A stretch of 64,000 nucleotides of DNA from Mayamaea pseudoterrestris (Eukaryota > Bacillariophyta > Bacillariophyceae > Sellaphorales > Sellaphoraceae). The notes under the pieces are model-generated. The model saw only the letters and a list, made by a program, of their open reading frames with translations, did not search any database and was not told where the DNA came from. The translations under genes and the position numbers were made by a program. Within the stretch, counting starts at the first letter, position 1; each line of letters opens with the position of its first letter. The stretch spans positions 620,001-684,000 of the forward strand of contig BROI01000018.1 in assembly GCA_027923505.1 (NCBI GenBank), read 5' to 3'. Shown here piece by piece: positions 2,207 through 41,047 of this stretch.

Positions 2207-2550
2207 GAAAGTGCGTCATCAGGCAATAGTATAAAACAAGTGCCAGTGATAGCTACGTCATAAAGCAATAGTACGAAACGAGTGCCAGTGAAAACGGCGT
2301 CATGAGGCTATAGTATGAAACGAGTGCCAGTGAAAACCACGTCATTAGGTAATAGTATGAAACGAGTGCCAGTGAAAACTACGTCACAAAATAATATAAC
2401 GAAACGATTTCCAATGAGTCATTAGGCAATAATATGAAACGAGTGCCAGTGTCAATTACGTAATGAGGCAATAGTATGAAACGATTGCCAGTGATAACTA
2501 CGTCACAAGGCAATAGTATGAAACGGGTGCCAGTGAAAACTCCGTCATAC
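2207..2550 (+). repeat. 42-bp tandem repeat array 1 (about 8 units)
   Basis: Contiguous units of about 42 bp with core GAAACGAGTGCCAGTGAAAA, followed by ACTACGTCAT and then an AGGCAATAGTAT-type segment. About eight units lie head to tail, all in the + orientation; the fifth (around 2385-2425) is strongly diverged. The array lies between the divergent CREG-like and MsrB-like genes, about 190 bp from the start of each. Many units carry ACGTCA, a half CRE-like site, where arrays 2 and 3 mostly carry GCGTCA. No spacers separate the units, so this is a satellite-like repeat. Confidence 0.93.
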
Positions 2551-2723
2551 AAGCGTCATCGTCGAGAGATGACGTGTTCGCTAACCGTGCTTCACCATGA
2601 GGATTCTTTGCGATGTGTATCGTCAGTTTCAACACGATCCGATTGATTTAGCGAAAGATTGTCATCATACATTCGTAGAGATTGCCATATCTCAAGTTTA
2701 AAGAAATATTACACCAAACGAAT

Positions 2724-3483
2724 ATGAAAATCTCCTCCACAGCCACCGTCGCGATGGCCATGGCTTCGACGGTTTCAGCCTTCGCTCCCGCCTTTGTCTC
2801 GCAGCAACTATCACGAACAGCTAGTCACGCTGCATTGTCAAGTCAACGACTATTTCTTTTCGACAAGCTCTTTAGCACGTCCACCAAGGACTCGCAGTAC
2901 CCAGTTTACGCGGACGAGTCTGTCATGGCACCCAAGGCGCATGGAACATCCGAGAAACCCGTTCAGTCCAACTTGCGATGGAATTGTGATGTTGCAACGG
3001 CTGATCGCATTTCTAATTTCAACAGACATTACGCCGAATTTGCTGGTATGTTTCGATTGCTGCTCAAGTGACGTTAATCATGCAGTACATGCGTTCTGCC
3101 GGCTCAACCACCATCCATCACTCTTTTCATTCACTTCATGCACAGGCTATTGGACATCAACTGATTTTCTTACATACGTCAAGGAACACGAGGATGAAAT
3201 TAAGGCTGGAAATCCCATTAACTTTTACGACTCGGTCACTGGCAAGTTGCTCTTTCGCGCACCTGTCGGTCGCTCACTCGAAGACTTTATTGCTGAAAGC
3301 AAGAGTCATGGGTGGCCCTCCTTCCGCGACGAGGAAACTAACTGGGAGCATGTACGTTGCCTTAAGAATGGAGAATGCATTAGCGAGACCGGAACGCACT
3401 TGGGACATAACCTTCCAGATGGCAAGGGCAATCGCTACTGCATCAACCTGGTCAGCGTTGCGGGTCATCCAGAGGAAAAGTAA
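2724..3483 (+). CDS. plastid MsrB-like methionine sulfoxide reductase family protein
   Basis: Exons 2724-3045 and 3146-3483 join to 219 residues; the intron (100 nt, GT-AG) interrupts the glycine codon of FAGYW. Residues 1-20 are a signal peptide ending VSAFAPAF, a textbook heterokont plastid cleavage motif, which decides the start over an in-frame ATG at 2682. The mature part matches the SelR/MsrB fold: GWPSF, HLGHNLPDG and the catalytic RYCIN cysteine near the C terminus. MsrB reduces methionine-R-sulfoxide. The two zinc-binding CxxC pairs of typical MsrB are not recognisable: YVCVVCG is replaced by FYDSVTGK, and the second pair is broken by an insertion (RCLKNGEC). It may therefore be a zinc-free or repurposed member. 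Confidence 0.78.
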
Positions 3484-4299
3484 ATGATTAAATTAGTGCT
3501 CGTCGAGTCATTATAGTTCAAGCAACAGTAATTGCTTAAAAGGTTAAACTTGGTAACGTGGCGAGCTTAGGATACATGCGAGACGACGACCTGCAATAGA
3601 AAACACCAGTCGACGACGTGCACCAAGTCTCGATCGAACGAGCCGACTGTGTAGCTAGCCAACAAGTGTCGTGTAGCGGCTGGTAGCTGCAGCGCACGTG
3701 TGTAGTCGACCGCAGTCATGGCAGATAGTGGCTCCTTTGTGTTCTTGCTTCGTAGATCTTGCTCCGTAGAAACCTGTCCACGTTGTCTTGTCGTCGACGT
3801 GCCCGCAAATTACGTGGGCATATCGTCATGCCGACAAATCAGTCCGATCTTTGCTTGCGGAGTTGTAACTTCATGAGAGCGTTTGCGATGACGCTTGCTC
3901 CATGATCGTGATTGAAACACTAGGCTGAAAATGTGGCCTTCTGCAATGCAAACATGCTGGGATTATCACCAGCTGTAGGAGCACTGCCGAACTAACAGTA
4001 AATCCAAGCTGTCCACTTGCTTTCTGTAGTGCCACGTTTGTCGTTTGGGATTTCTTTAGCCTCCACCGTCAGTTGTAACGTCACTGCCGACGACAATACT
4101 TTCTTCATCTTGGCCGCTGTAATGTCGACTTCTTCAGTTTCGACAATCTTTTAATCCAGCCGAGATGATGTAGCATCTGCTGGAGAAGAACCCTGAAACA
4201 ATTCTAAACCTTTTTATGCTTATTCGGCTATTGTCACGAAAGAGTAGCATCGCACGACCAATGGGCACCTCATTGTCTCATCCATACGTAACGCATGGC
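3484..4299. other. intergenic, no gene seen
   Basis: About 0.8 kb between the 3' ends of the MsrB-like gene and the convergent methyltransferase gene. Only short shadow frames are present, and no repeat or RNA gene was recognised. Confidence 0.5.
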
Positions 4300-5388
4300 T
4301 CAGTCAGCCACTTCGAACGGCTTGCGAAACCTTGCCGAAACCCAGACTCGCCGTCGCTTGGATTGCTGCGAGCGATTCTCAAAGACTTTACAAAGATAGC
4401 GCAGTTCCAAAACCTCCAGACCACAGTCCTGCTCGAATAATTGACGCAAATCATCCAAGGTAAAGTAGTAGCACTTTGTGCCATCAAACTTGCGATAGAA
4501 GTTGCTCTTGACAAGCTTGTGTCGTTGCAGTCCAAGCTTGAGTTGTCCCTCGTCGTATCGCCCATAGTCACGAATTACCAAGACACCGCCATGCGCCAAT
4601 GAATGAGCAATGTTTCGAGCTGCAGCAGCGTGCAGCATTGGATCAATGGCCGACAAGCAAAAGAAAAGCGTCGTGACAGTCGCCGCATGGATGCATGGCT
4701 CTGGAATTTGCTTTGTAATGTTGCAAACGTACGCAAAGGCGCGATTCATTTCATGAGCTTGCTTAAACCGAGCATCTTGTTGCAGCAATTCGACTGCCAC
4801 TGGACTGAGGTCCATGCAGTGAATCGTCCAGTCAATGGCTGCTGCGCCGTCACCATTGTCGTCTACTCGCTGATCCAAAAGTGGAAGCACTGCATTGCCA
4901 ACGCCACAACCAATCTCAACGCAGCAGCGAGCTCTTGTCGGATTGATTGTCGTTACGGAAAATTCGTCGCTAAAGTCCGTTTCCAAGTAATGTTTGTCCT
5001 TGTAAAAGTTGGTTTGGTGCGAATGGTAGAAGCGATTCCACGAGTCCTCCTCCAACTCTTCGAGGATATTTGTAATGAGACACTTTTCTTCGTGAGCTTG
5101 AAGCAAAGATGCAGCCTCCGTTGCATCGGTTTCCGTCCAATCCTCCTCGGTGACAGTAATGGTTCGATTCGCGCGTGATGAATTAAGCACGGTGCTTGTT
5201 GTCGGAGTATCAGACGAGTCCTTTGTATTTGACAATTTCATACGACCAAAAAGGTCATGATATGAAACAGCAACTTGCACCTCGGGATCAGTGAGCATGT
5301 TCTTGAAACTACGGGCAGGTACTACACTGTATTTGGAGTCATGGCCGGTAGATGTAGATCCCGCTCTCATCACTGTCAATTGCATCAT
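4300..5388 (-). CDS. METTL2/6-type tRNA N3-methylcytidine methyltransferase
   Basis: A 362-residue intronless class I SAM-dependent methyltransferase. The family signature WNRFYHSHQTNFYKDKHYL lies at about 117-135 and the SAM-binding motif VEIGCGVGNAVLPLL at 157-171. These are followed by an acidic loop with HCMDLSPVAVELL (motif II), VTTLFFCLSAI (motif IV) and the C-terminal GVLVIRDYGRYDEGQL block, all characteristic of the METTL2/METTL6/METTL8 and Trm140 family. Family members methylate C32 of certain tRNAs to m3C in the anticodon loop. The N-terminal 115 residues are poorly conserved. Which tRNAs are targeted cannot be read from the sequence. Two adjacent ATGs open the frame. Confidence 0.9.
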   Translation of the reverse strand: MMQLTVMRAGSTSTGHDSKYSVVPARSFKNMLTDPEVQVAVSYHDLFGRMKLSNTKDSSDTPTTSTVLNSSRANRTITVTEEDWTETDATEAASLLQAHEEKCLITNILEELEEDSWNRFYHSHQTNFYKDKHYLETDFSDEFSVTTINPTRARCCVEIGCGVGNAVLPLLDQRVDDNGDGAAAIDWTIHCMDLSPVAVELLQQDARFKQAHEMNRAFAYVCNITKQIPEPCIHAATVTTLFFCLSAIDPMLHAAAARNIAHSLAHGGVLVIRDYGRYDEGQLKLGLQRHKLVKSNFYRKFDGTKCYYFTLDDLRQLFEQDCGLEVLELRYLCKVFENRSQQSKRRRVWVSARFRKPFEVAD

Positions 5389-5444
5389 GCATCATGCATC
5401 GGGTCCGATCGTGCCAAATTTTGTCTATGTACTTCTTAATCCAT

Positions 5445-5630
5445 AGTGCCAAAAACTTTGATTTTCAACGGTTATCAATGTGCACTCTGGAGCACAGTGC
5501 CAAAAACTTTGATTTTCAACGGCTCACCATACTGCACTCTGAACTACAGTGCCAAAAACTTTGATTTTCAACGGTTGTCAGTGATACATTCTGGATTACA
5601 GTGCCAATAACTTTGATTTTCAACTGCCAG
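5445..5630 (+). repeat. 51-52 bp tandem repeat, 4 copies, upstream of eIF4E
   Basis: Four copies begin at about 5445, 5496, 5548 and 5600. The conserved part is about 27 bp, containing AGTGCCAAAAACTTTGATTT and then TCAACGG; the remaining 25 bp of each unit (for example TGCACTCTGGA) vary. A fragment at about 5411 (GTGCCAAATTTTG) may be a further, worn copy. The array ends about 140 bp before the eIF4E start codon and begins about 55 bp before the divergent methyltransferase start. The conserved-block pattern fits a repeated binding site better than a neutral satellite, but that is inference. Confidence 0.88.
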
Positions 5631-5767
5631 TCGCAGCAGCAACTCTACAGTCTATTCCCACTGCGACGCTCTCGCCCCGATGGCGTGCTTCCATATCTTG
5701 CTTGGCAACCACAACATGACATGAAGAATCAAACCACAGCAACTACAACCCTCTCCGACATCGTACC

Positions 5768-6764
5768 ATGACCTCCGCCAAAGTAACGCCTCTCCAATGC
5801 GCCTACACTTTTTCCTTTATGCGTCGCGGCAAAGGAGCCAGTGCTACCGACGCAGCGGCCGCCGGCAAAAAGGAGGAGAATGCAGCAGCAACTAGCGAAC
5901 CTAATCCTTACGAGAATGCCATCAAGACAATCACCACCGTTGGATCCGTCGAGGAGTTTTGGGCAGTTTACGATTTTTTGAAGCGTCCGAGTGACCTTAC
6001 GCCAACGACTGACTATCAGTAAGTACACAATGAGAGGAGGAAGGAGGATTCGCTGTTGCATGACGGAAACGATTCACTCAATTCTCTGCTATTGCGATTC
6101 CTTCCTCTTTTCAGCATTTTTCGCTCTGGCACTAAACCTACCTGGGAAGACCCCAATAATAAGGATGGAGGGAAATGGATTGTTCGACTCCCAAAGGGCC
6201 TTGCAAGGTGGGCTATCGATTGAATGATGGATGGATGGAGGGATGCAGTCCGACTTTCTTAGAACGCACAACCACTCACTCAAAAACATCTTTCATCTCA
6301 TACATTGATTCCCTTTCACAAACTATTTTTATTTTTACAGCCGTTACTGGGAAGAAATTACGCTAGCATTGATCGGTCAACAGTTCCTCGGCGTGCCCGA
6401 CGGCGAAGTTTGCGGAGCAGTATTGTCTGTTCGATACAATGAAGACATTCTTGGCGTTTGGAACAAGTCGGCTAGTGATCGGGAATGCATTGAAAAAATC
6501 AGAGACGCAATCAAAAAGATATTACAGCTGCCTCCTCACGCAAACATGGAATACAAGCCCCATCAAAACAGCATGGCGGATCGATCAAGCTTTCGCAATA
6601 CGACAGTCTGGAAACCAAAGTCTTTGGAGGGTCGGACGGCTGGGGGCGCCGCTGCTGCCGGTGGCGCGGAGGCTCGTCGGTCCTCCTGGGCGGAGCGGGA
6701 GGAGCGAAAGGCAGCAACGACCAAGGCGACTGGAAGAGATACTGGCACGGGGCGTTGGCGCTAG
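5768..6764 (+). CDS. class II eIF4E cap-binding protein (4EHP-like)
   Basis: Exons 5768-6018, 6115-6207 and 6341-6764 join to 255 residues; both introns are GT-AG (96 and 133 nt) and restore the reading frame. The product matches eIF4E2/4EHP through YTFSFMRRG, VGSVEEFWAVYDFLKRPSDL, the splice-formed YHIFRSG, PTWEDPNNKDGGKWI, KGLASRYWEEI, GQQFLG, VCGAVLSVR and ILGVWNKSASD. Aromatic residues in place of the first cap-contacting tryptophans of class I suggest class II, whose members bind the mRNA cap but often repress translation. After FRNTTVWKP the protein carries a roughly 45-residue Gly/Ala/Arg-rich tail not typical of the family. A 52-bp repeat array sits upstream. Confidence 0.9.
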
Positions 6765-7437
6765 AATGACTGCATCTGCAGCTACTTCTATAGTCATTGA
6801 TGTTGAAAATGTAACAGAATGGATGACATACACAACAGGGCTTTGAGTAACTATTGTTACTTCCTGTTAGTAGAAGACGCACGGTAAATGAAGTCCATGC
6901 TATGCGCACGACACTCTGGCACGTTTTGTCGTTCCGGTTCTTCTGCGACATTCGTTCATTCACTGCAGGAAAAAATGGCGACGAACAAATCTTCCATATG
7001 AACCTCTCACCTGTCCTTCGGCCCTGCAAGCAAGCACATTAACCTTTATTCTAGGTGAGGCATTATAAAATGAGAATTTGATCGAGGATGATGGTTTCGG
7101 CGATCGTCAAGAGAGTAGTCTTGTTTCTTTGGACGATGGCCAAGAACAAACGAGCGACAACGATATCCAGCCTGCAACAAAACAACTCGTCATTGATTTC
7201 GAAACTTGTCTTAATTCATTATGATTTCGTTCTGATGATAAGATGTATAAGACCTTTTCCTCAGGGCTGCATTGGTGACCGGGTGCCTACAAATTTGAGG
7301 GCGACGTGCTGCGACGACGTTCATCACATTTTTTTCTAGCGAAGGAGCAACAATCAAGGATAAAGCAACGACTATACAAGGCATTGCACTTACTGCCAAG
7401 ATAGCAATTGCCACTCGTACGTTAAACTTGGGTAGCA
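6765..7437. other. intergenic, possible stray coding fragments
   Basis: No complete gene. A + frame at about 7069-7210 reads as an acidic coding-like stretch (EDDGFGDRQESSLVSLDDGQ) without a start codon. A segment at about 7340-7445 is flanked by a good acceptor (tttttttctag) and donor (cccag/gtaaac). Either could be exons of an unresolved gene or remnants. Confidence 0.3.
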
Positions 7438-7872
7438 ATGTCCCAGGTAAACTATGAATCAAAGCGGAGCACCAGGAAGCATGTGCGACATGACGTGCCC
7501 GAGCCAGCTGGATTAATGACGGATGCGTCTGATAGCATTAAAGCGAGCTCAATTTCGGACAATCACTCGTCAGCTGTGAAGAAGATCAAAGAGCGCAGCA
7601 AGTCTAATGCTGATGCTGCCAGTGCCGTATGTTCGTTAGAAAATGCCGATCAAGATGCAAAAAATTCCATCAGCCTTCTTCATCTTGACTCAAACGCCAT
7701 TGAACAAGTTATGAGATTCTTGGAGATTCGAGAATTGGCGGTTTTGGCTTCGTGCAGCCACATGCTGCGCGACAAGCTGAACATTAGTGGGTACCTCCGG
7801 CTGATTGCAGAAGCTCTGCATGCGCACACGGGGCGAACGTATTATAAATCGACTGCTGAAAAGCACAAGTGA
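7438..7872 (+). CDS. small F-box-like protein, tentative
   Basis: A 144-residue reading frame opened by an ATG. The N-terminal half is polar and Ser/Lys-rich. From about residue 80 the sequence LLHLDSNAIEQVMRFLEIRE, followed by LAVLASCSHMLRDKL, resembles an F-box, the SKP1-binding motif of SCF ubiquitin ligases. No substrate-binding repeats follow before the stop, so the protein is either very short or the 5' piece of a spliced or damaged gene. The ATG overlaps a candidate splice donor of another frame, which makes the start uncertain. Confidence 0.4.
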   Translation: MSQVNYESKRSTRKHVRHDVPEPAGLMTDASDSIKASSISDNHSSAVKKIKERSKSNADAASAVCSLENADQDAKNSISLLHLDSNAIEQVMRFLEIRELAVLASCSHMLRDKLNISGYLRLIAEALHAHTGRTYYKSTAEKHK

Positions 7873-7922
7873 TCTCAACGTTATTTGAATTCATTGGTTG
7901 CGACAGACACTCACTTTGTAAA

Positions 7923-8641
7923 ATGCGACGCGCCGGTTTCATTGGAATCTTTGCTTTGTTGACAGTCGTTCAACGAGCATGTTATGGTCGAGTGGAGGTG
8001 TACGGCGGCAAATACTTTACGGAAGATGTCAACGTCAACTATTAAATTGATTGCAAAGTTAATTCTAAGTCGGCTTGATAGTTACGCGACTGTCCAGCGT
8101 CGCGTAGCAAGCGCACTGCTTCCTTTTTGCCAACTAAACCAACAAAGCCTTGCAACTACAGCCGTATATAGTCATCTGGACCACCTCGCTGTAGTTGCGA
8201 TCGCGCATGTCAACTTTGTAGTTGTGCAATGCCTTGCCTTCTATGGAGTGGGAACAAAGTTTATCAACGCACGGTAGGAGCTTTTCCTGAAATCAATCCT
8301 TTCAATTTTCGAAACGTCCACGACCGACTTGGCGTGTGCATGTGCCTTTTTGCGTGGAACGGCTCGACAACACCATCGTAGCGTATCAAATTAAAGCGGA
8401 TCGATGGTCGTATGGTACGTGGTGGTACATTATACTTTGTTCGCTCTGAAGGAAACAGCGCTTGTCTCAAGATCCACATTCCGATAGATGTAGCTCTTGC
8501 CGGAGAACGATAGTACTTGGAGAAGGAAAAGAAGCCAGTAACAATGTCGCCGTCGCAATTGCATTTACGGTTGGTTTGCTTGGCCAACGATATGCTTCCT
8601 TTGTTCCCTCGCCAATCGATACCAGCAAACGACTGCTATAG
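7923..8641 (+). pseudogene. broken coding region of unknown family (+ strand)
   Basis: Several coding-like stretches follow one another in different + frames. They are a 40-codon ORF at 7923 with a signal peptide (MRRAGFIGIFALLTVVQRAC then RVEVYGGKYFTEDVN), a Cys-rich stretch to about 8390 (RCSCDRACQLCSCAMPC and FRNVHDRLGVCMCLFAW), a stretch from about 8388 to 8515 (KLKRIDGRMVRGGTLYFVR), and one to 8641 (ASNNVAVAIAFTVGLLGQ). Frame changes with no convincing introns between the later pieces suggest a host gene damaged by indels, although a multi-exon gene cannot be excluded. The family is not recognised. Confidence 0.3.
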
Positions 8642-8703
8642 TACCACTGCCACTGTCCAGGCTTGTGGACTAGTGGCTAGCCTTCGCATCGCTTATCACA
8701 TGT

Positions 8704-9489
8704 TCACTCGCCTTTGTAAATCGACTCATACAAACGACATTTTCTTTTGATTGCGAAAAACTCGTCGGCGTCATGAAAGGACTTCCACGTTCGAATATTT
8801 AAATGCTATTGCCAATCACACGCATGATAAAAGGCAAGTTGCCGCTTTATATACCATCCCATAGGGTCATCACCGTTATAGTTCTGCCACATTGGTACAT
8901 ATGGATCGTTCACGGTAGTTTGGTCCATTCGATGATGGTAAAATGATTGCGCCATTGCTGAAAAAACTCAAAAGGTGACGCTTTGTGTGGACTGTGGGTC
9001 GACAGCTCAGAATAGTGAAAGGCAAAAGGCCATTCCTTCCGCAGTCGATGGTTCTCTTCCATGACCATGATACAAGTACAGAACGTTCCGTTGTCGCTGA
9101 TGGAGTCATGACTTCTTGTATTGTCTGCCTGCCGGCGCTGCTGCTGCAGCAGACAGCTTTCTGACGAAGACGTGATCGTTGGTCTCGTATGCTGTATGCT
9201 TATATCTCCACAGATTGACGAGAGAGCGCTAGCAGTAGCCGTCGTGTCCAAGTCATGACGATGGTCAAAACGAATAGTTGTGGCGCGCTGCCTGTTCTTG
9301 GCGCTACTGCATGGCACCGTTACCTTCGACGAGGCGCTCCTGTAAGACAAGGAGCTCCTTCAACGCGCGCTCCGTCAACGCCGTTGCCATATCCACTTGG
9401 TTTTCACCCCAGCCGAGTATACTACACGCTCTGCCGCCGTTTGATCCCATGTCGGACGCCGCCTCCATCCGTTTCACCGTGGCCGCCAT
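8704..9489 (-). pseudogene. broken or multi-exon coding region of unknown family (- strand)
   Basis: Coding-like - strand stretches occur in order. MAATVKRMEAASDMGSNGG begins at 9489, leads to a helical ERALKELLVLQERLVE and a plausible donor (gaag/gtaacg, about 9322). A second frame contains HRLRKEWPFAFHYSEL and SPFEFFQQWRNHFTII and stops at 8910. A third frame contains TTVNDPYVPMWQNYNGDDPM and, after an in-frame TAG, RTWKSFHDADEFFAIKRK, ending at 8704. The first junction can be an intron; the later frame shift and TAG look like damage. The family is not recognised. It converges on the broken + strand region at 7923-8641. Confidence 0.3.
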
Positions 9490-9633
9490 GGCTGCAACTG
9501 GTCATCTCAAAGCAACAGATCTTTGGACAGGCTGCTGAAACGTAACGTGGCCTGCCATCGTCTCTTGCCTCAAGCGCGTTGATTGAATAGCGCGGCGACG
9601 ACCATCAAAGATACCGTTTGCGCTTAAGTCACG

Positions 9634-9908
9634 CTGACGCAGTTTTCACTGGCACTCGTTTCATACTATAGCCTAATGACGCAGTTTTCACTGGCACTCG
9701 TTTCGTACTATTGCCTAATGACGCAGTTTTCACTGGCACTCGTTTCATATGAGCATTGAAACGAGTGCCAGTGAAAACTGCGTCATTAGGCAATATTATG
9801 AAACGAGTGCCAGTGAAAACTGCGTCATAAGGCTATAGTATAAAACGAGTGCCAGTGAAAACTGCGTCATCAGACAATAGTAAGAAACAAGAGCCAGTGA
9901 AAACTGTG
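9634..9908. repeat. 42-bp repeat array 2, inverted (3 + 4 units)
   Basis: Three units in the - orientation (9634 to about 9747) face four units in the + orientation (from about 9757 to 9908) across a short centre TATGAGCAT. It is the same family as array 1, mostly with GCGTCA where array 1 has ACGTCA. The array ends about 110 bp before the malonyl-CoA decarboxylase start codon. Confidence 0.95.
9709..9795. repeat. perfect 39-bp inverted repeat with 9-base loop
   Basis: Arms 9709-9747 and 9757-9795 are exact reverse complements of each other; the loop is TATGAGCAT at 9748-9756. Pairing continues imperfectly into the flanking units. This is the centre of array 2 and could extrude as a cruciform or fold as a strong RNA hairpin if transcribed. 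Confidence 0.95.
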
Positions 9909-9921
9909 CGACGGATCATCA

Positions 9922-9944
9922 TGGCGCCGCACCGTGGCGCGCCA
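9922..9944. promoter_or_regulatory. GC-rich palindromic element upstream of malonyl-CoA decarboxylase
   Basis: TGGCGCC and GGCGCGCCA flank a short centre, giving TGGCGC...GCGCCA inverted ends, about 80 bp before the start codon at 10021. It resembles the other GC-rich promoter-proximal elements in the window, though more loosely. Confidence 0.3.
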
Positions 9945-10020
9945 TACCGCAGTGGTGTTTGCTTTTCCATTATCAACACAAACATCACTCCATGGGTTGA
10001 TCGTCTGCACGACCTCAATC

Positions 10021-11739
10021 ATGACCTTTACGAAACATTTTATAAACCAGCGGCAATGTCTGCCATCCTTTCATCAAGGCCATGGTAGAATACGAGTCAA
10101 AAGACTCGTTCTTTCCGCAGCATGGATTCTTTCCTCCTCGACACGACGCTCCATGGCAATCATTGCCGAAGGGAAGGGAAGAACCATCATTAGCAACTCC
10201 GGAGATGCGACTAAAACAGCAAAAGGAGTAGCAGATGCCTTGGAACAATTTACAGATTGCTTGCGGAAGCTACAGGATCCTCAAGCACGAGCAGCGAGGT
10301 TAACCAAAACATCACCGTCGTTGCAGCGTGCCACGCTGCGAAGCTTAGCGCTAGCCATTTTTGAAAACTATCCAACCCTACCGTGGTATCGCCCCGACAA
10401 GCAAGGATGGGAAAAGACACGGATTCTTCGCTTTCTAGCGGAGGATTGTACGCCATCGCACGACAAGGTTGCCGACGCTGCTCAAACATTCACAAGACGA
10501 CTCGAACATTTGCAGCAAGAATCAAAAGCATCGGAACAAGTAGATGGCCATTCTCTCCACCCAAAAAAGCCATCCATGCACGCCCTGCAGCAAGCATGTA
10601 CGCCGGAATACGAACGAGTCATTACACAATTGCTACAGATTCAAGCTGATCAGGGACTCGCCTTTTTGCTACACCTTCGACGAGACTTGCTTCATTGGAT
10701 GGCCTTTCAGCGAGAACAGCCACTACACGATCGGCAAGCCCTACGCAACTGTCAACAGCTGGACGAATATCTTGCATGTCTCTTCCAAACATGGTTTGCG
10801 CCTGGCTTGCTAAAGGTTGAACGCATTACGTATGATACAACTAGTGCCGCAATCATTGAACGCATTGCTCGCAACGAGGCCGTCCACCCAGTCCAAGATT
10901 TGGCTGATTTACGGCGACGACTGGGAGGAACGGATAGACGCGTCTTTTGCATCTTTCACCCGTTGCTCGACAAGTGTCAGCCGCTGCTGGTCCTTTACGT
11001 GGCGCTCACGGATCGCGTGCCAAACTCTATGAACGTCATTCACGATCATCCAAGTAAGCAAGTCGACAATGTGTTACGCGTCGCAACCTTTTACTCTATC
11101 AGCAACTTTGAAACGGGTTTAAAAGGCGTTGGTCTGGGCGAGTACTTGATCCATCAAGCGGTGGATTTACTGCGCACGGAGCTGCCACAATTGAAAATCT
11201 TTTGCACGCTGAGTCCGTTGCCCAAGTTTCGCAGTTGGCTGCAGGAGCGGACTGCGGCCAATGCCAGTGGAACGTTTGCTTCGTCCCACTTACTGAACGA
11301 GACAATGAGGCAAAAGCTTGCGGATGCGCTAAATGTGACTCCGGATCAATCCATTGTCGCCATGCTAGACTACTTAAGTGACAATGTGACGGCTGCAGAA
11401 GACATTGAATTGAACAATTCGCGCGACGTCGGACCACAAATGGTTGTTATACGGGATGCTTTGATGCAACTTGCGGCGCACTATCTTATCAACGAAAAGC
11501 ATCGGGAGCAGCCGCTTGATCCGGTGGCCCGCTTCCACATTGGTAATGGCGCATTGGTGCACGCCATTCGATGGGGCGCCGACAATTCTAGTCGAGGATG
11601 GAGCAATAGCTTTGGCATTATGGTCAATTACGAATACGACTTGGAATGCCTCACTGAGCATCAAGTGCAGCACGAGCAATCGCTCGTCGTACCAATGCGT
11701 GACAATGTGAGAAGCCTATTAGTCGATTCCAGCCTATAG
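10021..11739 (+). CDS. MLYCD: malonyl-CoA decarboxylase
   Basis: An intronless 572-residue protein; the open frame extends upstream but 10021 is its first ATG. The catalytic GNAT-fold half is well conserved: HPVQDLADLRRRLG, RRVFCIFHPLL, ATFYSISNFETGLKGVGLGE, the CTLSPLPKFRSWL block that carries the conserved serine region, and FHIGNGALVHAIRWGADNSS, which includes the catalytic histidine motif. The enzyme converts malonyl-CoA to acetyl-CoA and CO2, controlling malonyl-CoA levels. The N terminus (MTFTKHFINQRQCL, then RIRVKRLVLSAAW) is basic and fits a mitochondrial presequence. The C terminus is SSL, a weak variant of a peroxisomal signal, so dual location is possible but unproven. Repeat array 2 lies directly upstream. 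Confidence 0.93.
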   Translation: MTFTKHFINQRQCLPSFHQGHGRIRVKRLVLSAAWILSSSTRRSMAIIAEGKGRTIISNSGDATKTAKGVADALEQFTDCLRKLQDPQARAARLTKTSPSLQRATLRSLALAIFENYPTLPWYRPDKQGWEKTRILRFLAEDCTPSHDKVADAAQTFTRRLEHLQQESKASEQVDGHSLHPKKPSMHALQQACTPEYERVITQLLQIQADQGLAFLLHLRRDLLHWMAFQREQPLHDRQALRNCQQLDEYLACLFQTWFAPGLLKVERITYDTTSAAIIERIARNEAVHPVQDLADLRRRLGGTDRRVFCIFHPLLDKCQPLLVLYVALTDRVPNSMNVIHDHPSKQVDNVLRVATFYSISNFETGLKGVGLGEYLIHQAVDLLRTELPQLKIFCTLSPLPKFRSWLQERTAANASGTFASSHLLNETMRQKLADALNVTPDQSIVAMLDYLSDNVTAAEDIELNNSRDVGPQMVVIRDALMQLAAHYLINEKHREQPLDPVARFHIGNGALVHAIRWGADNSSRGWSNSFGIMVNYEYDLECLTEHQVQHEQSLVVPMRDNVRSLLVDSSL

Positions 11740-33251: not shown

Positions 33252-33537
33252 TTGGACGCTAAAGAGCTACCAGCATACGTATATTAAGCTATAGATTTAT
33301 TGTCACTTCACACCGTCCCTTCTAAAACGAATATCAAGCAAGCTTGCGGCATTATGGGTTTATCGCTGCAGCGGCTAATAATTCATCTGATCATGACTCG
33401 ATAGCAAGTCAAATTCAAATTCGTAATACGATGTAGTGTAAGTACGAGTTCCAAGGAATTCAAATTATGTTTTAGCTGGGCTACCAGTCGACTCAATAAA
33501 AAGTCAATCCACGCGCCTCCCATATAACCCTGGTGTG

Positions 33538-35722
33538 CTACCGATTCCACCACAGCTCTTGGGCATCCAAGTCTCGCAGACTCTCAATCTTTTTCATGTA
33601 TATTTTGCTGTTTCGACTGCGATTATATGTTGCTTGTCGGCTCGGAGGCAGACGGTCAACGTCAACTTCTTCAAAGCCGCGTTCAACAAACCATTCCATA
33701 GTCTGCGTGCTCAAGACGAAGATGGACGTGCAGCCATTCTCAACCGATAGTCGTTCCAAGTAGCCAAGCATAGCGTCACCGCGTCCGCGGCTTCGGTAAT
33801 CCTTGTTAACGACAAGGCATCCAATTTCGGCGAATCCGTCCTCAAACTGCTTCAATTGGCCGCACGCCACGATATGATTGTCGCGTGTATATACGTAATA
33901 CATGTCAACGTCCTTTTCAAGTGTTGCTCTTGGACGATCCACCAACGTGCCCATTTGAATGAGCGGCGCAATGAGGTCGTGTATGCCGGCCACGTCGTTG
34001 ACATCAGCCCGACGGATACCTTCGTACAAGTCGCCTGAAATGAGCGTTCCGCTTCCATCACGCGTATACAGTTCCTGCAAAAGGGCTCCGTGCTTGGGAG
34101 ATATAATATGAGCTCGCTTGACGCCTTGTTCGAGCGCCTGCATGGCATATCCAATCTTTAAAAGCATCTGCACCGCAAACTTGTCATATTTTGGATTGTT
34201 TGGGCCCATGGTAACGTATCCCTTCTTGTGGACCGATATGCCCGAGTACTTGAGTAAGTTGCGAGCATCGGATAGCCGAAGACTTTGTATCTTATTCCCA
34301 CTGCTCGTGTGCCGAAGTTCCGTTTCCTTGTCTGTAAAGTAAATGACCTTGCTTGCCCCCAATGCTCCCGCAACTGCCGCCGCCAAGCTCTCCGAATTGC
34401 AGTTGAACACTTCCCCACTCGGACTGACGCCAAGCGTTGTAAGTAGACAAATGTCTCGTCCGTCCAATACTTGACGAATCTTTTGCGCTTCTACTCGTCG
34501 GACAAAGCCAGTGAATCTGTTTTAAAGGTGCGAAAGAGGCATTGTTTGTAAACTCGGTTGTACGTATAATTCCTCGTGCCGCGCATTTGCAGGAAAAAAT
34601 GACCATCAGGTACAGTACTCACTTGTAATCCACTCCATCGCGTACTCCAAACGGCTGCGCCGAGTAAAAGTTGCCACTGACAACGTTACCATCAAAATTG
34701 CCCGCATGGTCCAAATTCACCGTCTTTTCAGCACCACTTCCGCCTTGTATCCGCAGCGACCTAGCCAGCTGCCGCTCCACTTCGAATCGCACATAGCCAG
34801 CCTCCTCCTTGACAATGCGCAGCGTTTCCTCGTCCGTGACGCGCAGGGCGCCGTCGTGCAGTTTGCTATTGGGTGACCACCAGTGATCCTCGCGTTGACG
34901 ACGACTCTCTTTTGTTACATGGTTGTCGTTATTATCGTTACCATTATCCAAAAGATGCAGTTGTTTTTCTCGTTGAATCCTTCGCTCAATCTGATGGCGA
35001 CATCCAACTACCAATACAACCTTCATGCCAAGCAACCAGGTGAGTGAAATGTCATTCATTAGATTGCGAAAGGCTTCCGAATTATTAGAATCATTGTCTT
35101 GTTCGGTCAAAATACTTCCGGGAATGTGATAGACGGCAAGCGTGTTGCGGTGATTGGCAATGTAATTGGCGCTTCCGCGAAACATTCCGACGAATGGAAT
35201 GTTGAGTGGAAGTTGCTGCTGCTGCTGCTGCTGCTCGCGTGCAGCATCAAGTGGCAATGTTGAGTCTTTATTGCTGCTGTCAGTATTATTATCTTGCACC
35301 GTGACGATTTGAATATTGCTCGGATCAATGGCAAGGACGGCACTCGATATTGATTGTGGTTGTAGCGGAATGCTTCCAGTGGATGCTGCCCCAGTGGAAG
35401 TGTCGCCATTGACGGCAATATTATAATTTCGACTGAGTACTTCATTGTTGCGTAGATTGAGTGGCATGGATCGTCCGCCATCAGCGTCTGCTTCGGAAGA
35501 ACCCGAGGACGTTGCCGACAAGGGTCGAGATTGTGAAGCGATCGTTCCCAGCGAGCGCCGCTGGAGCGACGACGCCGAACTAGACGCTGAGAATGCTCTC
35601 GTCAAAATCGGATATTTCAATATTAAAAAAAGAGAGGCGAGTCTGTTCCGCATGTTGTTACTCCCGATTGACGTAGAAAAATGGAGTAAAGGTCTTGATG
35701 CCGCGTGAAGCAGTCGAAGCAT
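33538..35722 (-). CDS. N-acetylglutamate synthase (ArgA-type, kinase fold plus GNAT)
   Basis: Exons 34623-35722 and 33538-34516 (- strand) join to 692 residues (106-nt intron; YK-FTGFVRRVEAQ). An amino-acid-kinase fold comes first (FVGMFRGSANYIANHRNTLA; LLGMKVVLVVGCRHQIERRI; ICLLTTLGVSPSGEVFNCNS), then a GNAT domain (IRRADVNDVAGIHDLI; CLVVNKDYRSRGRGDAMLGY; FVLSTQTMEWFVERGFEEVD). This order is that of bacterial and plant ArgA, which catalyses the first step of arginine synthesis from glutamate and acetyl-CoA. The N terminus, especially from Met24 (RLASLFLILKYPILTRAF), looks like a bipartite plastid signal. Low-complexity Ser, Gln and Asn runs lengthen the protein beyond the usual 450-600 residues. 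Confidence 0.9.
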
Positions 35723-36277
35723 TCACTCGTCGACCGGCAGAGCGATTGAGTGACAGCGATCGTTTTCTCTTCGATGCTATTCTCTCTTTCAGTATTCGAA
35801 TAGACTAAACGCTAGACAAAGTGGTAGCGATGTAGCTTGCATTCACTCGGACGCATCTGGTCGGCAGCATGCACGAGAGCCAAAGTGCGGTTGCGGAAGA
35901 AAGGCAGCATGTAAGTGTCGTTCCGCGACTAGATATCGATTTCAATACCGCTTGAGTTCCTGCGACACTCTTTGGCAGCGAAACGTCGCGAGACGAATGG
36001 ACCACCCGCCTCCTCGCGCCATAATCAATCTCGTTCCTGGTTAATCTCTCGCTCATTCTCCATTGTCAATAACTAAACGAGGGAGAGAGGACGGTTACAG
36101 GACAAGCAATCTCGTGCTAGTGGGAGGAGGTGGATTGACTTGAGCAGATCAGCATCTGCAGCAGCGGCGTGGCTTTTTGTCTTTCTGCGAGACAGCGCGG
36201 CCGAAGGAGACTGGCTGGAGCGCTTTGTTTAAAACGCTGCAGCTACTGCCTTTTGAGTGACGTCATATACTAGTAGC
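35723..36277. promoter_or_regulatory. divergent promoter region with a TGACGTCA site
   Basis: The shared upstream region of the synthase gene (-) and the PAM2w-like protein gene (+). A perfect CRE-type palindrome TGACGTCA lies at 36258-36265, 12 bp before the + strand start codon at 36278. The bases after it (ATACTAGTAGCATGAGACG) weakly resemble part of the 42-bp repeat unit, which may be coincidence. Confidence 0.4.
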
Positions 36278-38599
36278 ATGAGACGCTCGACGGAACCAAC
36301 GAGTGGAGCGAACGGTCCGCTGAAGAAAAAGTTTGGCAAGAATTTAAACAAGCTTGTCAAGCCTGCCGCTCCCCCCATTGTTTCCAATAGTGGAGCTCAC
36401 AATGCACGAAATGGACTGCTTCTGTTGAGTACAAAGAAAGCGGCTAGCAAGGAATCGGCTGGTCCAGGTCTGCTGTCAAAGCAGCCGCCCAAGGAAGTTA
36501 CTGTTGCGGCATCGCCATCAAACACTTCCGCTTCTGCAACAGCGGCTACTGTCAGCAAACCGGCCTACGAATCCAAAGCGGCTTCGACGCATGATGTATT
36601 ATTGAATGCCGTCAAGGGAGCATTGCTCGAGCCGCAAACGCCATTGGATGCCTGGGGCGTGCAGCAGCAGCAACTTGAGGCGGCGGCAGCGAGTAGTGAG
36701 GAACATGACAATGCAGCAATCTTGCCGTCTGAAGCAAACAGCTCTGAATCGAAGGAGCGAGAAGCATCTGAGTCTCCCCTCATTGATACAGATACTATTG
36801 GTCGAGCTCAATTTACGCATGTTGCTCCGTCTTGGGATGAGTATGGCGGACGCGATGCCACAGCAGTCGCGTCAAAGCGAGTTTCAGCTGTTGCTCTGCC
36901 ACCCAAGCCAGTTATTGCCATGATTCAAAAGCGACCTGAAGGTGAAGCAATTGCAGAAACAAAGTTGAACGAGACGGAGGAAGCGAAGGCTGCCGCATCC
37001 TTGGCACAAGAGTCGGCGAAACAAATTCAGCAGCAGGACACGATGGAGGCGCCTCGTCTTGATGCTGCTGTCGCCCATGCAACAAACGTAAAGACGGTGG
37101 AAAGTCGCCAACTCTGGTCTCCCGAGCCAGTGGCCGCATCAAACGAAGCTCAACCTATCGGACAGAAGGAAGCGAACGCAAAGACGCTTGACGTTGCGTA
37201 TCAGATGAACGGACCTACGCCGTTGAAGCATCAGGGGCCGCAACCGCCCACGCCTGCGACAAGCACGCAACCAGTCATTTACTTGGCAAGTTACGAGGAT
37301 CGCAATCGCGGCGAGCAAGACAAGCAGAATCAGTCGACCCGCATGTTGTACGATCCAAGAAGTGGATCAATGGTGGCTGTTGGGACCTTGGGCAACGGTC
37401 GAAAGGATGTGTCGGCGGCTAGAGGGTCCCGAAACTCAAAACCAGCAAATGCTCCAAAGTCAAATGCTCGTCGCGACAAGACGAAAGACAGTGGGTCTCC
37501 GGCGTTGAGTTCCACAAAGGCGAGCTTTAGCAATGGTGGCAAGGACGACATGATGGACGAGAAACGTCATCTTTTGTCCAAGCAGAGCTATGGCAACTCT
37601 AATTTGCAGCCTATGTCATCGGTAAACAATGTACATCGTCCTTTTCCTCGTACATGCGGCGTCCTGTACTCGCGCGACGACGAGGGAAACCTTTATTGCG
37701 TTGATGGGTGTGAGGGTGATCTTGGGTATGGGATGCATTCTGTGCCTGGTGGACGAATGGAGAATACAGCCGCCTACGCTGAATACAAGAGAAAGTATCA
37801 CCATTCTGCACGCGTCTACAAGGTGTCAGATGATCATGGCTACGAGCGTTACACGACAACTACTGCTCATGCCCGTTTTGGGGCGTCCAAGCTTCTTGCC
37901 AAGGAAGCCAATATGTCACTGTACACCGGTCTTACGGCTGCCGACAAGGACGAGGAGTTTATTTCTACACCGCTTGAGTATGTTCGCGCTGATGACAAGC
38001 TGGAGCTTGTGACTGGAGACGACGACACTCCGACTTTAAAACCCACGGCACGTGCTTGGGCACCTAGCCAGACGGCAATTGCTGCGGCAGCAGCTGCTCG
38101 TGTCGAGGGGAAGAATGCAACAAATGGAAATGAGCAGGAAATGGATGATAGTGGCGACGACGACGATGGTCCTTTGGGTCTTGGCTTTGACCCGACGCAG
38201 GGCATGGATTTTGAGCTTGAGTCGCCTTCCCACGAACGACGCGATACTAGTCGCCTCGGTTTGATAACCATGAGTGCTTTGTCTCTGGAGCCGTCTGGAT
38301 TTAAAACTACTGATGCCGAAGAAACCGATAGCGGCGGCGTGCCTCGTCACCTATTTGGCTTTGGTGCGTCGGGAACTTGGGGCGTCAACACAGATGCGTC
38401 GTCAAGCGGCGCGAGCGAGTGGGAGTTGCCACGTACTAACGATGCGGCGAGTTTGTTTGGCGGCGGTATTTTTCAGGTACAGAAAGATGATAATCGCGAT
38501 CCAAGTGCCGCATTTATCACTATATCGAGCAGCAACTCGTGGTCGGCACCTTCGTTGGCAACGAAAAACATCTCGACGACCCCAGCTGGCATTGAATGA
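36278..38599 (+). CDS. large disordered protein with a PAM2w-like motif
   Basis: An intronless 773-residue protein, largely disordered, rich in Ala, Ser, Gln and charged residues. The start is the first ATG of the frame. A basic N terminus (LKKKFGKNLNKLVKPAAPP), a short FTHVAPSWDEYGGRD block near residue 185, a TRMLYDPRSGSMVAVG block near 355, and a semi-ordered region at about 450-560 (GVLYSRDDEGNLYCVDG) are the only conserved-looking pieces. At about 583-594 the sequence LKPTARAWAP fits the PAM2 consensus (L-x-P-x-A-x-x-F/W-x-P), by which proteins such as LARP4 and ataxin-2 bind the MLLE domain of poly(A)-binding protein. An mRNA-related role is therefore proposed, not shown. Confidence 0.6.
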   Translation: MRRSTEPTSGANGPLKKKFGKNLNKLVKPAAPPIVSNSGAHNARNGLLLLSTKKAASKESAGPGLLSKQPPKEVTVAASPSNTSASATAATVSKPAYESKAASTHDVLLNAVKGALLEPQTPLDAWGVQQQQLEAAAASSEEHDNAAILPSEANSSESKEREASESPLIDTDTIGRAQFTHVAPSWDEYGGRDATAVASKRVSAVALPPKPVIAMIQKRPEGEAIAETKLNETEEAKAAASLAQESAKQIQQQDTMEAPRLDAAVAHATNVKTVESRQLWSPEPVAASNEAQPIGQKEANAKTLDVAYQMNGPTPLKHQGPQPPTPATSTQPVIYLASYEDRNRGEQDKQNQSTRMLYDPRSGSMVAVGTLGNGRKDVSAARGSRNSKPANAPKSNARRDKTKDSGSPALSSTKASFSNGGKDDMMDEKRHLLSKQSYGNSNLQPMSSVNNVHRPFPRTCGVLYSRDDEGNLYCVDGCEGDLGYGMHSVPGGRMENTAAYAEYKRKYHHSARVYKVSDDHGYERYTTTTAHARFGASKLLAKEANMSLYTGLTAADKDEEFISTPLEYVRADDKLELVTGDDDTPTLKPTARAWAPSQTAIAAAAAARVEGKNATNGNEQEMDDSGDDDDGPLGLGFDPTQGMDFELESPSHERRDTSRLGLITMSALSLEPSGFKTTDAEETDSGGVPRHLFGFGASGTWGVNTDASSSGASEWELPRTNDAASLFGGGIFQVQKDDNRDPSAAFITISSSNSWSAPSLATKNISTTPAGIE

Positions 38600-38929
38600 T
38601 GGTCTGCATGTACGGAGTGAAGTAAGGTACCGTATTACCCCACTTTATTCTTCGAGTGGAGCGTATTTGACGTATTATCAACCCAACTAGTCAGGTTTCT
38701 GCGCGTTGGCCGTCGTAACGAATTTACTTGGCAGTGGCAAGACGACGGGCTTGCAATCTACCTTGATCCGGATTATGCAAGAGTAATGACTAATTTATCG
38801 AAGCGTTAAAAGCTATCATTCTTTAATCTTTACCTTTGACGATTTACTTTATTCTGTTATAAATAGAGAGGCAGCCGACTGCTTGGACGACTACTCGATC
38901 TCCAACCAATCAATCTGCCATGCTCCAAT

Positions 38930-40542
38930 TTAAAGCCATTCTAAAAATGAATGAAACCCTGGATGCCCCATGTTCCCATTACCTAGAATGAGTCTTTGGT
39001 CGCTGCCAAAGCGTATGGCAGTGCCCCCGCATCCGTACCGTTTAAACTGCATCGTGACTTGTTGGAACCTTTTCTTGGGCTTGTCGGTGGGTGCTCGACC
39101 AACAAATAAGATGTCCTGCGCTTTACTCACTGGTGGCACCCAACTCGCGTCTGGCTGGATTGTACCACCCCATTGACTGTTTGCATCCTCTCCAAAGCAA
39201 TAATTGGTACCATCCAACTGATTCTGAACCACGTAAATGTCAGGTCGACCATTATTGTCAACATCAATAATCTCCAAGTCGGGAGCAGCAAACGGAAGGG
39301 TTGCTTGATACCAAGGTGTATAAAAGTCAAAGTAGGGAGCTTTCTCTCGCCCCTGGAACACCAACAGCGTGCTTGCTTGCGCATCTTCGTTGACGGCTAT
39401 CAAATCGAGACGACCATCACCCGTGACATCGGCCACTCGCACATTACTCCATCTTGCTGTGGCTGAAAGTTCCGAAAGCTTTAGCATTTTCCATCGTCCA
39501 GATAAAGTTTGAGTGTAAATCGCTGGTGGCAGTGGTCTATGGCAAAGTATAAGATCGTCGACTCCGTTGCCCGTAATGTCGACGGCAATCGCTGCAATCG
39601 CATCGGATATCACCTTCCAGGGCGCAGTGTCTGCTTGCACTTCTGTGAACCATGGTCGACTGGTCATTGATTTGAAGTCATTGCGAAACATGATATGCTT
39701 ATTGTACTTGCCATCCGTTCGTGGCACATCTCCTTCGACCCCTACAAACAGAAGTTTCGTGTCGTTTGGTCCTCGGAGCGTCGTGGCGATGCGGTTACGC
39801 ATTGTCGGGTACTTGTTGTTACCGAGCGTCTTGTCCATTATTTTGATCAGTGCTCCGTTCGACTCGGTCAGGTAGACTTCGCCGTATCCGATTCCTTTTC
39901 CCTGGCCAGCTCCGACAGTACAAATAACATCTTCAAGTCCGTCCCCGTTGATATCCATGTGAGTGCATCCGTGTCTATCCATCGTAATTTTGCCAATCTC
40001 GGCATTGAAAATGTTAATCGTGTCCAGCACCGACGTTTCGCTCATTTTCCAAGTGCCGTCTGCTTGCAGGCACCATGGACTCTCGTTGATGGCTTGATGA
40101 CCGACGAACCACATGGTTGGTAAGCCCTGGCACCATGGTGAACCTTCCGGCATTGACATTGAATTGAGGATCTGTGAAGAAACAAGTTGAAATTGGTGAC
40201 AGTGATGTACTCCAAAATGATAAAGCTTGAAATTGCCTGCATGCCACTTTCATCTGCAATCCTTACCTTGGTGGCAGGTCGCTGCTCTACAATAGTCACG
40301 GTGGGTTGATAGCTCATAGACTTCGTCGTCTGCTGTAGTCTTCTCGAGATTGTAAAAACATCTTCGTTGTTTGTTCTATTGTCAGCAAGAAAACCTTTCG
40401 TATCTACTCTGACAGTGACGTTGACGTTGTCCATGTCATCAGTTAACTCGCTTGTGCGACCGAGAACTACGAGAATCATGATAACTGTGGCAAGAACAAC
40501 GGCAAAAATAAAGCTCCTCCATGGCTTGCAGCGCTTCTCCAT
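38930..40542 (-). CDS. type II membrane protein with FG-GAP/VCBS repeats
   Basis: Exons 40267-40542 and 38930-40171 (- strand) join to 505 residues with a 95-nt phase 0 intron. Residues 1-10 are basic, and 11-28 (FIFAVVLATVIMILVVLG) are a signal anchor, so the bulk lies in the lumen or outside. At least four FG-GAP-like repeats with Asp-rich Ca2+-binding loops are seen: CTHMDINGDGLEDVI, VDITGNGVDDLI, VADVTGDGRLDLIAV and IDVDNNGRPDIYVV. The C terminus GCGGTAIRFGSDQ and GNGNMGHPGFHSFLEWL resembles the ASPIC/UnbV end of CRTAC-like proteins. Such repeats form an integrin-alpha-type beta-propeller for adhesion or carbohydrate binding. The ligand is unknown. Confidence 0.82.
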
Positions 40543-40744
40543 GGCAACAGTTGATTCTCGTAACCAACACTTGATTCACTGATTCGTTTAAAACAGGGAT
40601 TGGTGCTTTGATAAGTCTTGCATTCAGTCATCGAGCAAAGAATGAGGCTTCGGTGAAGTAACGGAGCAATGGAAATGACTTCTTGTAATGTCCGCCGCGT
40701 GTGCATCGCGAATGATTCTTGTTCCATCTTTACAGTTAAATCAT

Positions 40745-41047
40745 GCTGACGTAGTTTTCACTGGCACTGGTTTCGTACTATTGCCCTATGACGCAGTTTT
40801 CACTGGCACTTGTTTCGTACTATTGCCTCATGACACGTTTTTTAACTGGCACTCGTTTCACATAAGTGCATGCTGACGCAGTTTTCACTGGCACTCGTTT
40901 CGTACTATTGCCTTGTGACGCAGTTTTCACTGGCACTCGTTTCGTGCTATAGCCTTGTGACGTAATTGACATTGGCACTCGTTTCGTACTATTGCCTCAT
41001 GACGCAGTTTTCACTGGCACTCGTTTCACATTATTGCCCAATGATGC
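40745..41047 (-). repeat. 42-bp tandem repeat array 3 (7 units)
   Basis: Seven contiguous units, all in the - orientation relative to array 1, start TGACGCAGTTTTCACTGGCA and end near 41047. Unit 3 has a variant end (CACATAAGTGCATGC) that resembles the centre of inverted array 2. The array separates the divergent FG-GAP and EEP-family genes, about 200 bp and 65 bp from their start codons. Confidence 0.94.

Follow-up and report, generated by a model that had tools for sequence, protein, structure and literature searches.

The genome of the diatom Mayamaea pseudoterrestris contains more than 100 short arrays of a 42-bp repeat, and their association with promoters holds in a wider sample of loci, although some of the placement tests are only modest. 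We consider it probable that the arrays represent a multi-copy composite promoter element in which a bZIP-type site is combined with a putative partner site. The preliminary description had proposed either a dispersed, promoter-seeking satellite or a genuine regulatory module; the blockwise conservation of the unit, the lack of within-array homogenisation and the lack of shared flanks and of TIR or TSD signals favour the regulatory module.

Results

Within the 64-kb window (the whole stretch of DNA analysed here), TRF detects 42-bp arrays at 2214-2549, 9635-9906 and 40742-41044, and a search with the 20-bp core allowing up to 3 mismatches yields 20 matches against 0.02 expected, in good agreement with the three well-kept arrays reported previously (Table 1). 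Array 2 is composed of two opposed halves. A worn fourth array at 55225-55350 had also been proposed, but its best unit retains just 25/42 consensus letters; scored with the unit matrix, the segment contains no site above -14 bits, while the best sites of ten Markov-random windows range from -21 to -8 bits, i.e. the proposed array is not above chance. As described earlier, the copies lack unique spacers: the linkers belong to the consensus (79% consensus letters in the left linker), which speaks against a CRISPR-like array. The CREG, malonyl-CoA decarboxylase, FG-GAP and endonuclease/exonuclease/phosphatase (EEP) labels of the neighbouring genes are supported by Pfam and the ATR label also stands, whereas for the MsrB-like label the SelR match (19.7 bits) falls below the Pfam cut-off of 24.9 bits. 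Array 2 would be divergently flanked, too, if the 61-aa open frame on its left is a gene.

Table 1. Arrays and neighbouring genes in the 64-kb window.
Feature	Position	Strand	Remarks
CREG beta-barrel gene	1225..2019	-	Left of array 1; PF13883, 8e-46
Array 1	2214..2550	+	7 units by core match, with one worn slot among the units; CREG gene (-) on one side, gene from ~2724 (+) on the other
Gene right of array 1	2724..3483	+	Weak SelR match below Pfam cut-off
61-aa open frame	9304..9489	-	Left of array 2; without Pfam match
Array 2, left half	9632..9746	-	3 units
Array 2, right half	9747..9914	+	4 units; upstream of malonyl-CoA decarboxylase
Malonyl-CoA decarboxylase	10125..11739	+	To the right of array 2; start unproven, left limit taken from the coding HMM
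FG-GAP protein gene	38930..40542	-	Left of array 3; two open frames
Array 3	40742..41044	-	7 units; FG-GAP gene (-) and EEP gene (+) on either side
EEP gene	41210..42319	+	To the right of array 3; left limit taken from the coding HMM
ATR-like kinase gene	45954..54626	-	Near the proposed worn array
Proposed worn array	55225..55350	+	Upstream of ATR; not above chance

A genome-wide search shows that the repeat recurs: the whole genome contains 389 exact copies of the core, and 1,190 copies of the two-block pattern when as many as 3 mismatches are allowed, while reversed control patterns yield 0 copies. By division, the genome would hold about 170 arrays. The 27-letter pattern has no exact match in viral or prokaryote contig collections, which are unlikely to hold diatom repeats, and four 14-15-letter pieces of the unit were not found in the literature. 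Our detailed sample comprises 37 array places and 259 units. Successive units are exactly 42 bp apart in 186/219 steps and 43 bp apart in 20/219, and 36 of the 37 places contain 4 to 15 copies, with the remaining place, L033, holding a lone unit. All units share a single orientation in 34/37 arrays, the other three consisting of opposed halves, and two unit subtypes occur, mixed between arrays.

Conservation within the unit is blockwise. Across the 259 units, a 15-bp block, AAACGAGTGCCAGTG, has 2.5% non-consensus letters and a CGTCA block has 5.3%, compared with 21-40% at the positions outside both blocks; the two blocks are separated by 7 bp. Since CGTCA lay outside the core used to search for arrays, its constraint is not due to ascertainment. 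In 223 of the 227 units that carry CGTCA the site reads RCGTCA, i.e. TGACGY on the opposite strand, which agrees with TGACGT/C, the reported target of Phaeodactylum tricornutum bZIP11 (PMC11142338; motif list in PMC4915529, Table 3). The genome encodes 14 bZIP matches over the cut-off. One of its FCP proteins is closest to chain 6l4u_2 of Chaetoceros gracilis, but not identical with it. An extra CGTCA placed exactly in register opens 14 of the 34 single-orientation arrays (chance ~0.001 each), and the 200-bp flanks of the arrays show no excess of TGACG sites (3.1 vs 3.8 per kb). Units from the same array resemble each other scarcely more than they resemble units from other arrays: identity at the 18 variable positions is 0.647 within an array, 0.693 for adjacent units and 0.615 between arrays.

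The period of 42 bp is divisible by 3, and the longest open stretch in the five arrays checked spans 67 codons, as might be expected if the arrays were transcribed leaders or encoded a repeat peptide or RNA. We consider this very improbable. Variability at third codon positions does not exceed that at the others in the most open reverse frame, and the frame is broken by the 43-bp steps, both of which disfavour a coding repeat; furthermore, none of 23 arrays coincides with a segment called as coding by the HMM, and an Rfam search of the window gave no match.

We then related the arrays to gene edges predicted by our own coding HMM. Where both neighbours could be called, 21/32 arrays lie in divergent gaps, 11/32 in tandem gaps and 0/32 in convergent gaps; judged by these predicted coding edges, the 21 divergent gaps are candidates for bidirectional promoters, in which the starts of two divergent genes are at most 1 kb apart. 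The nearest 5' coding edge is at a median distance of 140 bp (34 arrays). The proximity to starts described earlier stands, but the distances are more spread than the 65-200 bp originally given: the edge is at most 300 bp away in 29/34 arrays and at most 150 bp away in 18/34. Arrays point either way relative to the adjoining genes. Neither the mostly divergent placement nor the TGACGY bZIP-type site appeared in the preliminary description.

Comparison with shuffled positions, suggested in the same description, was carried out by placing 23 arrays at random in the window and the 10-kb loci under two permutation nulls. Divergence (P 0.013 and 0.036) and a 5' edge within 300 bp (P 0.011 and 0.0025) both exceed random placement. 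For 91% of 22 arrays the closest coding edge is a 5' rather than a 3' edge, as compared to 64-66% for random placement (P 0.004 and 0.002). The median distance to the 5' edge is significant with the pooled null (P 0.0145) but not with the own-locus null (P 0.094). The absence of convergent arrays is not significant in the permutation nulls (P 0.14 and 0.12), while a length-share binomial gives 8e-4 for a sample that includes 14 self-chosen loci. L036 was convergent by the first gene model; the refined model sets a + gene beside it. The earlier statement that gene bodies and the spaces between convergent 3' ends are free of arrays also holds in our sample: none of 23 arrays overlaps a predicted coding segment in the first model, and of the 37 arrays in the refined model a single one, L025, is touched by a coding segment, by 2 bp. 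Other tandem repeats in the array loci are mostly coding (13/22) and do not share this placement.

Two further features count against the promoter reading. Firstly, the genes flanking the arrays have no obvious common pathway, and the neighbours tested show no carbon theme. Secondly, the arrays clump regionally, with a median nearest array neighbour at 25 kb vs 90 kb under uniform placement, a pattern left unexplained by a simple promoter role. Neighbouring arrays within 30 kb share their orientation in 19/28 cases (P 0.04, a weak effect), as do 30/52 within 100 kb (P 0.17) and 43/71 at any distance (P 0.05). Clumping, orientation in either direction and the lack of a functional theme are what one would expect of chromatin boundary, insulator or replication-origin elements residing in nucleosome-poor divergent gaps, the clumps being chromosome domains. 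This explanation appears quite unlikely to us, as the very short distances to both coding edges in several gene pairs fit promoters better: the array of L044 occupies 168 of the 285 bp between coding edges, which are 73 and 44 bp away, and that of L030 occupies 466 of 643 bp, with edges at 115 and 62 bp. Similarly, the array of L020 fills 337 of 508 bp.

The clumping, together with the many copies in unrelated places, the opposed halves in 3/37 arrays and the mixing of unit subtypes between arrays, is also compatible with a dispersed minisatellite or non-autonomous mobile element that either targets open promoter chromatin on insertion or persists nowhere else, and that does not serve the genes. 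Array-free gaps have a median length of 631 bp between divergent and 234 bp between convergent genes, and the longer divergent gaps may be permissive. The conserved blocks would then be binding sites of the element's own mobilising protein, just as the subterminal repeats of CACTA-type transposons bind theirs. We regard this scenario as unlikely, given that several of its expected traces are missing. No flank is shared beyond the arrays: comparison of the 74 flanks of the 37 arrays, each up to 400 bp long, gave 0 matching pairs, and comparison of 20 loci and the window gave only two unrelated repeat pairs. The latter set aside matches under 700 bp touching both arrays and left out the 1.4-kb loci; next to each array, the 400-bp comparison covers what was omitted. 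Within ~50 bp on each side of the 37 arrays, the mean longest direct match is 5.43 vs 5.45 in the null (TSD) and the inverted match 5.43 vs 5.58 (TIR), in a test that would miss imperfect or distant repeats. A TATAGCC-like sequence past several 3' array edges looked like a TIR by eye, but the inverted-match test gave nothing. The negative flank comparisons and TIR/TSD test speak against a larger transposon. Finally, identity within arrays barely exceeds that between them (0.65 vs 0.61), and in 264 kb no unit outside the arrays exceeds 10 bits, the lone unit of L033 being itself one of the sampled places.

Discussion

How might a composite promoter element of this kind operate? We infer that the TGACGY site (CGTCA on the unit strand) would be bound by a CREB/ATF-like bZIP factor and the block AAACGAGTGCCAGTG by a putative second DNA-binding protein. 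With 10.5 bp per helical turn, 42 bp make up four turns; at this period successive modules would face the same side of the helix, where the bound factors could stack and keep the array free for nearby transcription starts. Given the usual head-to-head gene setting and the occurrence of arrays in either orientation, the array may serve as a bidirectional promoter or as an upstream activating array. A bolder version, which we offer only tentatively, is that a single repeat family provides a few hundred unrelated genes of one diatom with their standard promoter. It would be a helically phased bidirectional cassette, portable and independent of orientation, that would have spread between neighbouring promoters and then been held by selection on two protein-binding blocks.

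A two-motif phased repeat at more than 100 places, mostly promoters in our sample, offers a handle on what may be a major diatom transcription factor pair. The arrays would also supply diatom engineering with compact bidirectional promoters that are ready to use, and they offer a case in which to study how many unrelated genes come to be preceded by one regulatory sequence.

Among known diatom systems, the arrays can be compared to CCRE1-3, the CO2/cAMP-responsive elements of P. tricornutum PtCA1/PtCA2 (Ohno et al. 2012, as described in citing papers), which comprise three sites, distributed over both strands, within -86 to -42 relative to the transcription start. The likeness lies in TGACGT/ACGTCA/TGACGC sites occurring in several copies per diatom promoter, and the RCGTCA of our units conforms to the CCRE motif. 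However, while the PtCA1/PtBST1 motifs form an inverted set on both strands (PMC11142338), units keep to one strand in 34/37 arrays and form no such set. The 42-bp period and the AAACGAGTGCCAGTG block do not figure in these accounts of CCREs, and here usually 4-15 copies are present at more than 100 places, with no carbon theme in the neighbours tested.

Satellite DNA and minisatellites are head-to-tail arrays of fixed period. The arrays resemble them in both respects (42 bp in 186/219 steps), but differ in being short, constrained blockwise, placed at promoters and little homogenised locally. Promoter-associated minisatellites and homotypic clusters of transcription factor sites likewise consist of tandem copies of a site in promoters, as do our arrays. 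What sets the diatom repeat apart from these is that one family is common to more than 100 places, and that a two-part module has been kept while units within an array have not been homogenised.

Window arrays and genome-wide copies

The three well-kept 42-bp arrays that the preliminary description reported in the window were recovered by Tandem Repeats Finder (see table), and the core GAAACGAGTGCCAGTGAAAA matches the window 20 times at up to three mismatches, against 0.02 expected from shuffles. A fourth, worn array had been proposed at 55225-55350 and did not hold up: its top unit agrees at only 25 of 42 letters and all its sites score -14 bits or less with the unit matrix, while the top scores of ten Markov-random windows range from -21 to -8. 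This stretch may be a relic of an array, a status that sequence alone does not establish.

Positions of arrays, other repeats and genes (L numbers, array loci elsewhere in the genome)
Feature	Sequence	Position	Description	Source
Array 1	window	2214-2549	42-bp period	Tandem Repeats Finder
Array 2	window	9635-9906	42-bp period	Tandem Repeats Finder
Array 3	window	40742-41044	42-bp period	Tandem Repeats Finder
52-bp repeat	window	5445-5624	predicted divergent gap, 3.5 copies; apparently unrelated to the 42-bp family	
FCP (light-harvesting) gene	window	57226-57798 (contig 18, 677226-677798)		
~181-bp repeat	L027	6481-9908	long array, 18 copies	
Relative of ~181-bp repeat	L035	8987-9153		
~169-bp related repeats, common to two contig 2 loci	L029; L031	275-1247; 6-2018		
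Silicon-transporter domains	contig 1	2970661-2974680	three consecutive, each within a 1,445-codon open frame	
Recurring array places	contig 9	782158-801410	two places repeat exactly 10,090 bp on (782158 to 792248; 791236 to 801326)	

The window spans bases 620001-684000 of contig 18. Searching the whole genome (30.6 Mb, 41 contigs) with the core and a two-block pattern revealed a dispersed family. Exact copies of the 20-bp core number 389, of which 213 are forward and 176 reverse (reversed control 0), and the two-block 27-letter pattern, at up to three mismatches, is present 1,190 times (control 0). With a mean of seven units per array (259 units, 37 arrays), this amounts to about 170 arrays, a figure reached by division rather than by count. 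At least 112 array places outside the window were compiled from four match lists; the compilation takes in every exact core through position 299,792 of contig 8, past which an exact tail was required, CTGCGTCA as far as contig 17 or CTACGTCA as far as contig 27, with five others added, and it is without arrays of the second subtype alone (e.g. contig 2 positions 1022836 and 2626956). We read 37 places: the three in the window, 20 loci of 10 kb (the first 20 of the place list, contigs 1-3), six of 1.4 kb mostly chosen for high copy number and eight hand-chosen loci of 3 kb, these last 14 being non-random. Arrays hold 4-15 units across the places read, save one locus (L033) with a single unit. 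In the open-licence literature, judged mostly by title and abstract start and with subscription journals mostly outside its scope, we found no recognisable description of a family of this sort, and four pieces of unit sequence matched no paper.

Two constrained blocks in the 42-bp unit

In the unit consensus, GGCAATAGTAYGAAACGAGTGCCAGTGAAAACTRCGTCATAA, non-consensus letters make up 2.5% of the 15-bp block AAACGAGTGCCAGTG and 5.3% of CGTCA, as against 20.9% of the left linker, 21.7% of the 7-bp gap separating the blocks and 39.8% of the three final bases; units were located by core match, which biases towards a conserved core, and CGTCA was not in the search core. Dropping terminal units (186 internal units left) gives the same pattern, with 2.5% and 3.3% in the blocks versus 21-36% elsewhere. 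Variation between the blocks is due in part to two subtypes, GTGAAAACTRCGTCA and GTGTCAATTACGTCA, which are intermixed inside arrays. Exact CGTCA is missing from 32 of 259 units; a purine precedes it in 223 of the 227 units that have it, so that TGACGT or TGACGC appears on the reverse strand. In 14 of the 34 arrays whose units all point one way, an extra CGTCA stands exactly in register ahead of the first unit; the last unit contains CGTCA in 28 of them. Same-strand steps (n = 219) measure 42 bp in 186 cases, 43 bp in 20, 41 bp in four and other lengths in nine.

Arrays lie near predicted 5' coding edges of unrelated genes

Gene edges came from our own coding HMM, trained on long open frames, in a first and a refined version. 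By the first, 14 of 23 arrays were divergent, seven tandem, one convergent and one open; by the refined version, 21 of 37 are divergent, 11 tandem and none convergent, with a neighbour missing for five. The earlier statement that no array lies in a gene body stood for all 23 arrays under the first version, none overlapping a coding segment, and under the refined one holds but for a single locus of the 37, L025, where a coding segment reaches 2 bp into the array. Likewise, the claimed absence of arrays between convergent 3' ends holds under the refined version (0 of 32) and failed once under the first, at L036, which the refinement turned into tandem. Window array 2 went from divergent to tandem, and may be divergent if a 61-aa frame on the minus strand (9304-9489) is counted.

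For a permutation null, 23 blocks were randomly placed in non-coding DNA and set against the 22 arrays of the window and 10-kb loci with both neighbours. As proposed, arrays keep close to starts, here predicted edges: the 5' coding edge is the nearer in 91% of arrays versus 64-66% at random (P = 0.004 own locus, 0.002 pooled), and 77% versus 45-56% lie within 300 bp of it (P = 0.011 and 0.0025), the median distance giving P = 0.094 and 0.0145. Divergent arrays number 13 versus 8.3-8.8 (P = 0.013 own locus, 0.036 pooled), the 23 blocks against 22 arrays giving the null a slight advantage in these counts; absence of convergent arrays gives P = 0.14 and 0.12. The null is conservative because array-bearing gaps are included. 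A test on the length shares of gaps of 250 bp or more that hold no array, with the hand-picked loci included, yields P = 9.5e-4 for 21/32 divergent and 8e-4 for 0/32 convergent. The median distance to the 5' coding edge is 140 bp, with 29 of the 34 arrays that have a 5'-facing neighbour within 300 bp. Since the remaining tandem repeats of these sequences, 22 in all, are placed differently (13 coding, two divergent, three tandem, one convergent, three at locus ends), this placement is special to the 42-bp family.

Of the 45 frames that flank 23 arrays, picked by the first HMM version, 34 gave a Pfam family at an E value no higher than 0.001, a few of them under the cut-off: CREG, malonyl-CoA decarboxylase, FG-GAP, EEP, DNA polymerase beta/lambda, tubulin, TPR, LETM1, guanylate kinase, proteasome, ribulose-phosphate epimerase, kinase, ankyrin, BCAS2, Snf7, ATG13, CBS, replication factor C, ArfGap, SET, WD40, 5'-nucleotidase, RsmB/F-type methyltransferase and others. 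The neighbours, first described as unrelated, are functionally mixed, many of them housekeeping, with no carbon-concentrating theme apparent by Pfam among the 45 frames.

Genome-wide, the chlorophyll a/b-binding family has 53 matches and the silicon transporter family 10, on which grounds we regard the host as a diatom. One of the encoded light-harvesting proteins was compared with solved structures, and its nearest chain is not identical to it. The three silicon-transporter domains on contig 1 are probably one fused gene.

Clumping and evolution of the arrays

Across contigs 1-17, with the lengths of five of them interpolated, the median nearest-neighbour distance of 88 places is 25 kb, versus 90 kb for uniform placement and 71 kb within contigs. 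Counts per contig are uneven (P = 4e-6, computed on the unevenly covered place list); contigs 9, 12 and 15 have the most arrays for their length, and because they fall in the less covered part, the clumps are not a coverage artefact. None of the matches listed falls in the first 2.2 Mb of contig 1. Clumping could arise from spread between nearby promoters or from domain-level regulation. The recurrence on contig 9 suggests a tandem duplication of ~10 kb.

A young satellite expanded in place is expected to show far higher within-array likeness than that found: identity at 18 variable positions is 0.647 within arrays (0.693 for adjacent units) and 0.615 between arrays, and only five of 905 within-array pairs are identical. 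Comparing 74 flanks, each up to 400 bp long, gave no matching pair; over 10 kb the arrays' flanks had nothing in common, only two pairs of unrelated repeats being found, and array edges carry direct and inverted repeats no more than by chance. With the unit matrix, no unit outside arrays exceeds 10 bits in 264 kb, and five such sites score between -14 and -3 bits.

Possible function and likeness to diatom bZIP sites

The two constrained blocks, the bZIP-type site, the period of four helical turns, the closeness to starts and the occurrence in either orientation are as expected for multi-copy activating or promoter elements. Blockwise constraint, low likeness within arrays, unshared flanks and edge repeats at chance level favour these over the promoter-seeking satellite also suggested before. 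Candidate binders would be a bZIP and a partner, whose binding and response at the arrays we infer; bZIP has 14 matches above cut-off in the genome. The TGACGT or TGACGC read on the reverse strand of the unit is also found in Phaeodactylum tricornutum, where the bZIP11 target is described as TGACGT/C and the PtCA1 and PtCA2 CO2/cAMP elements as TGACGT, ACGTCA and TGACGC (PMC11142338, PMC4915529, PMC7378808).
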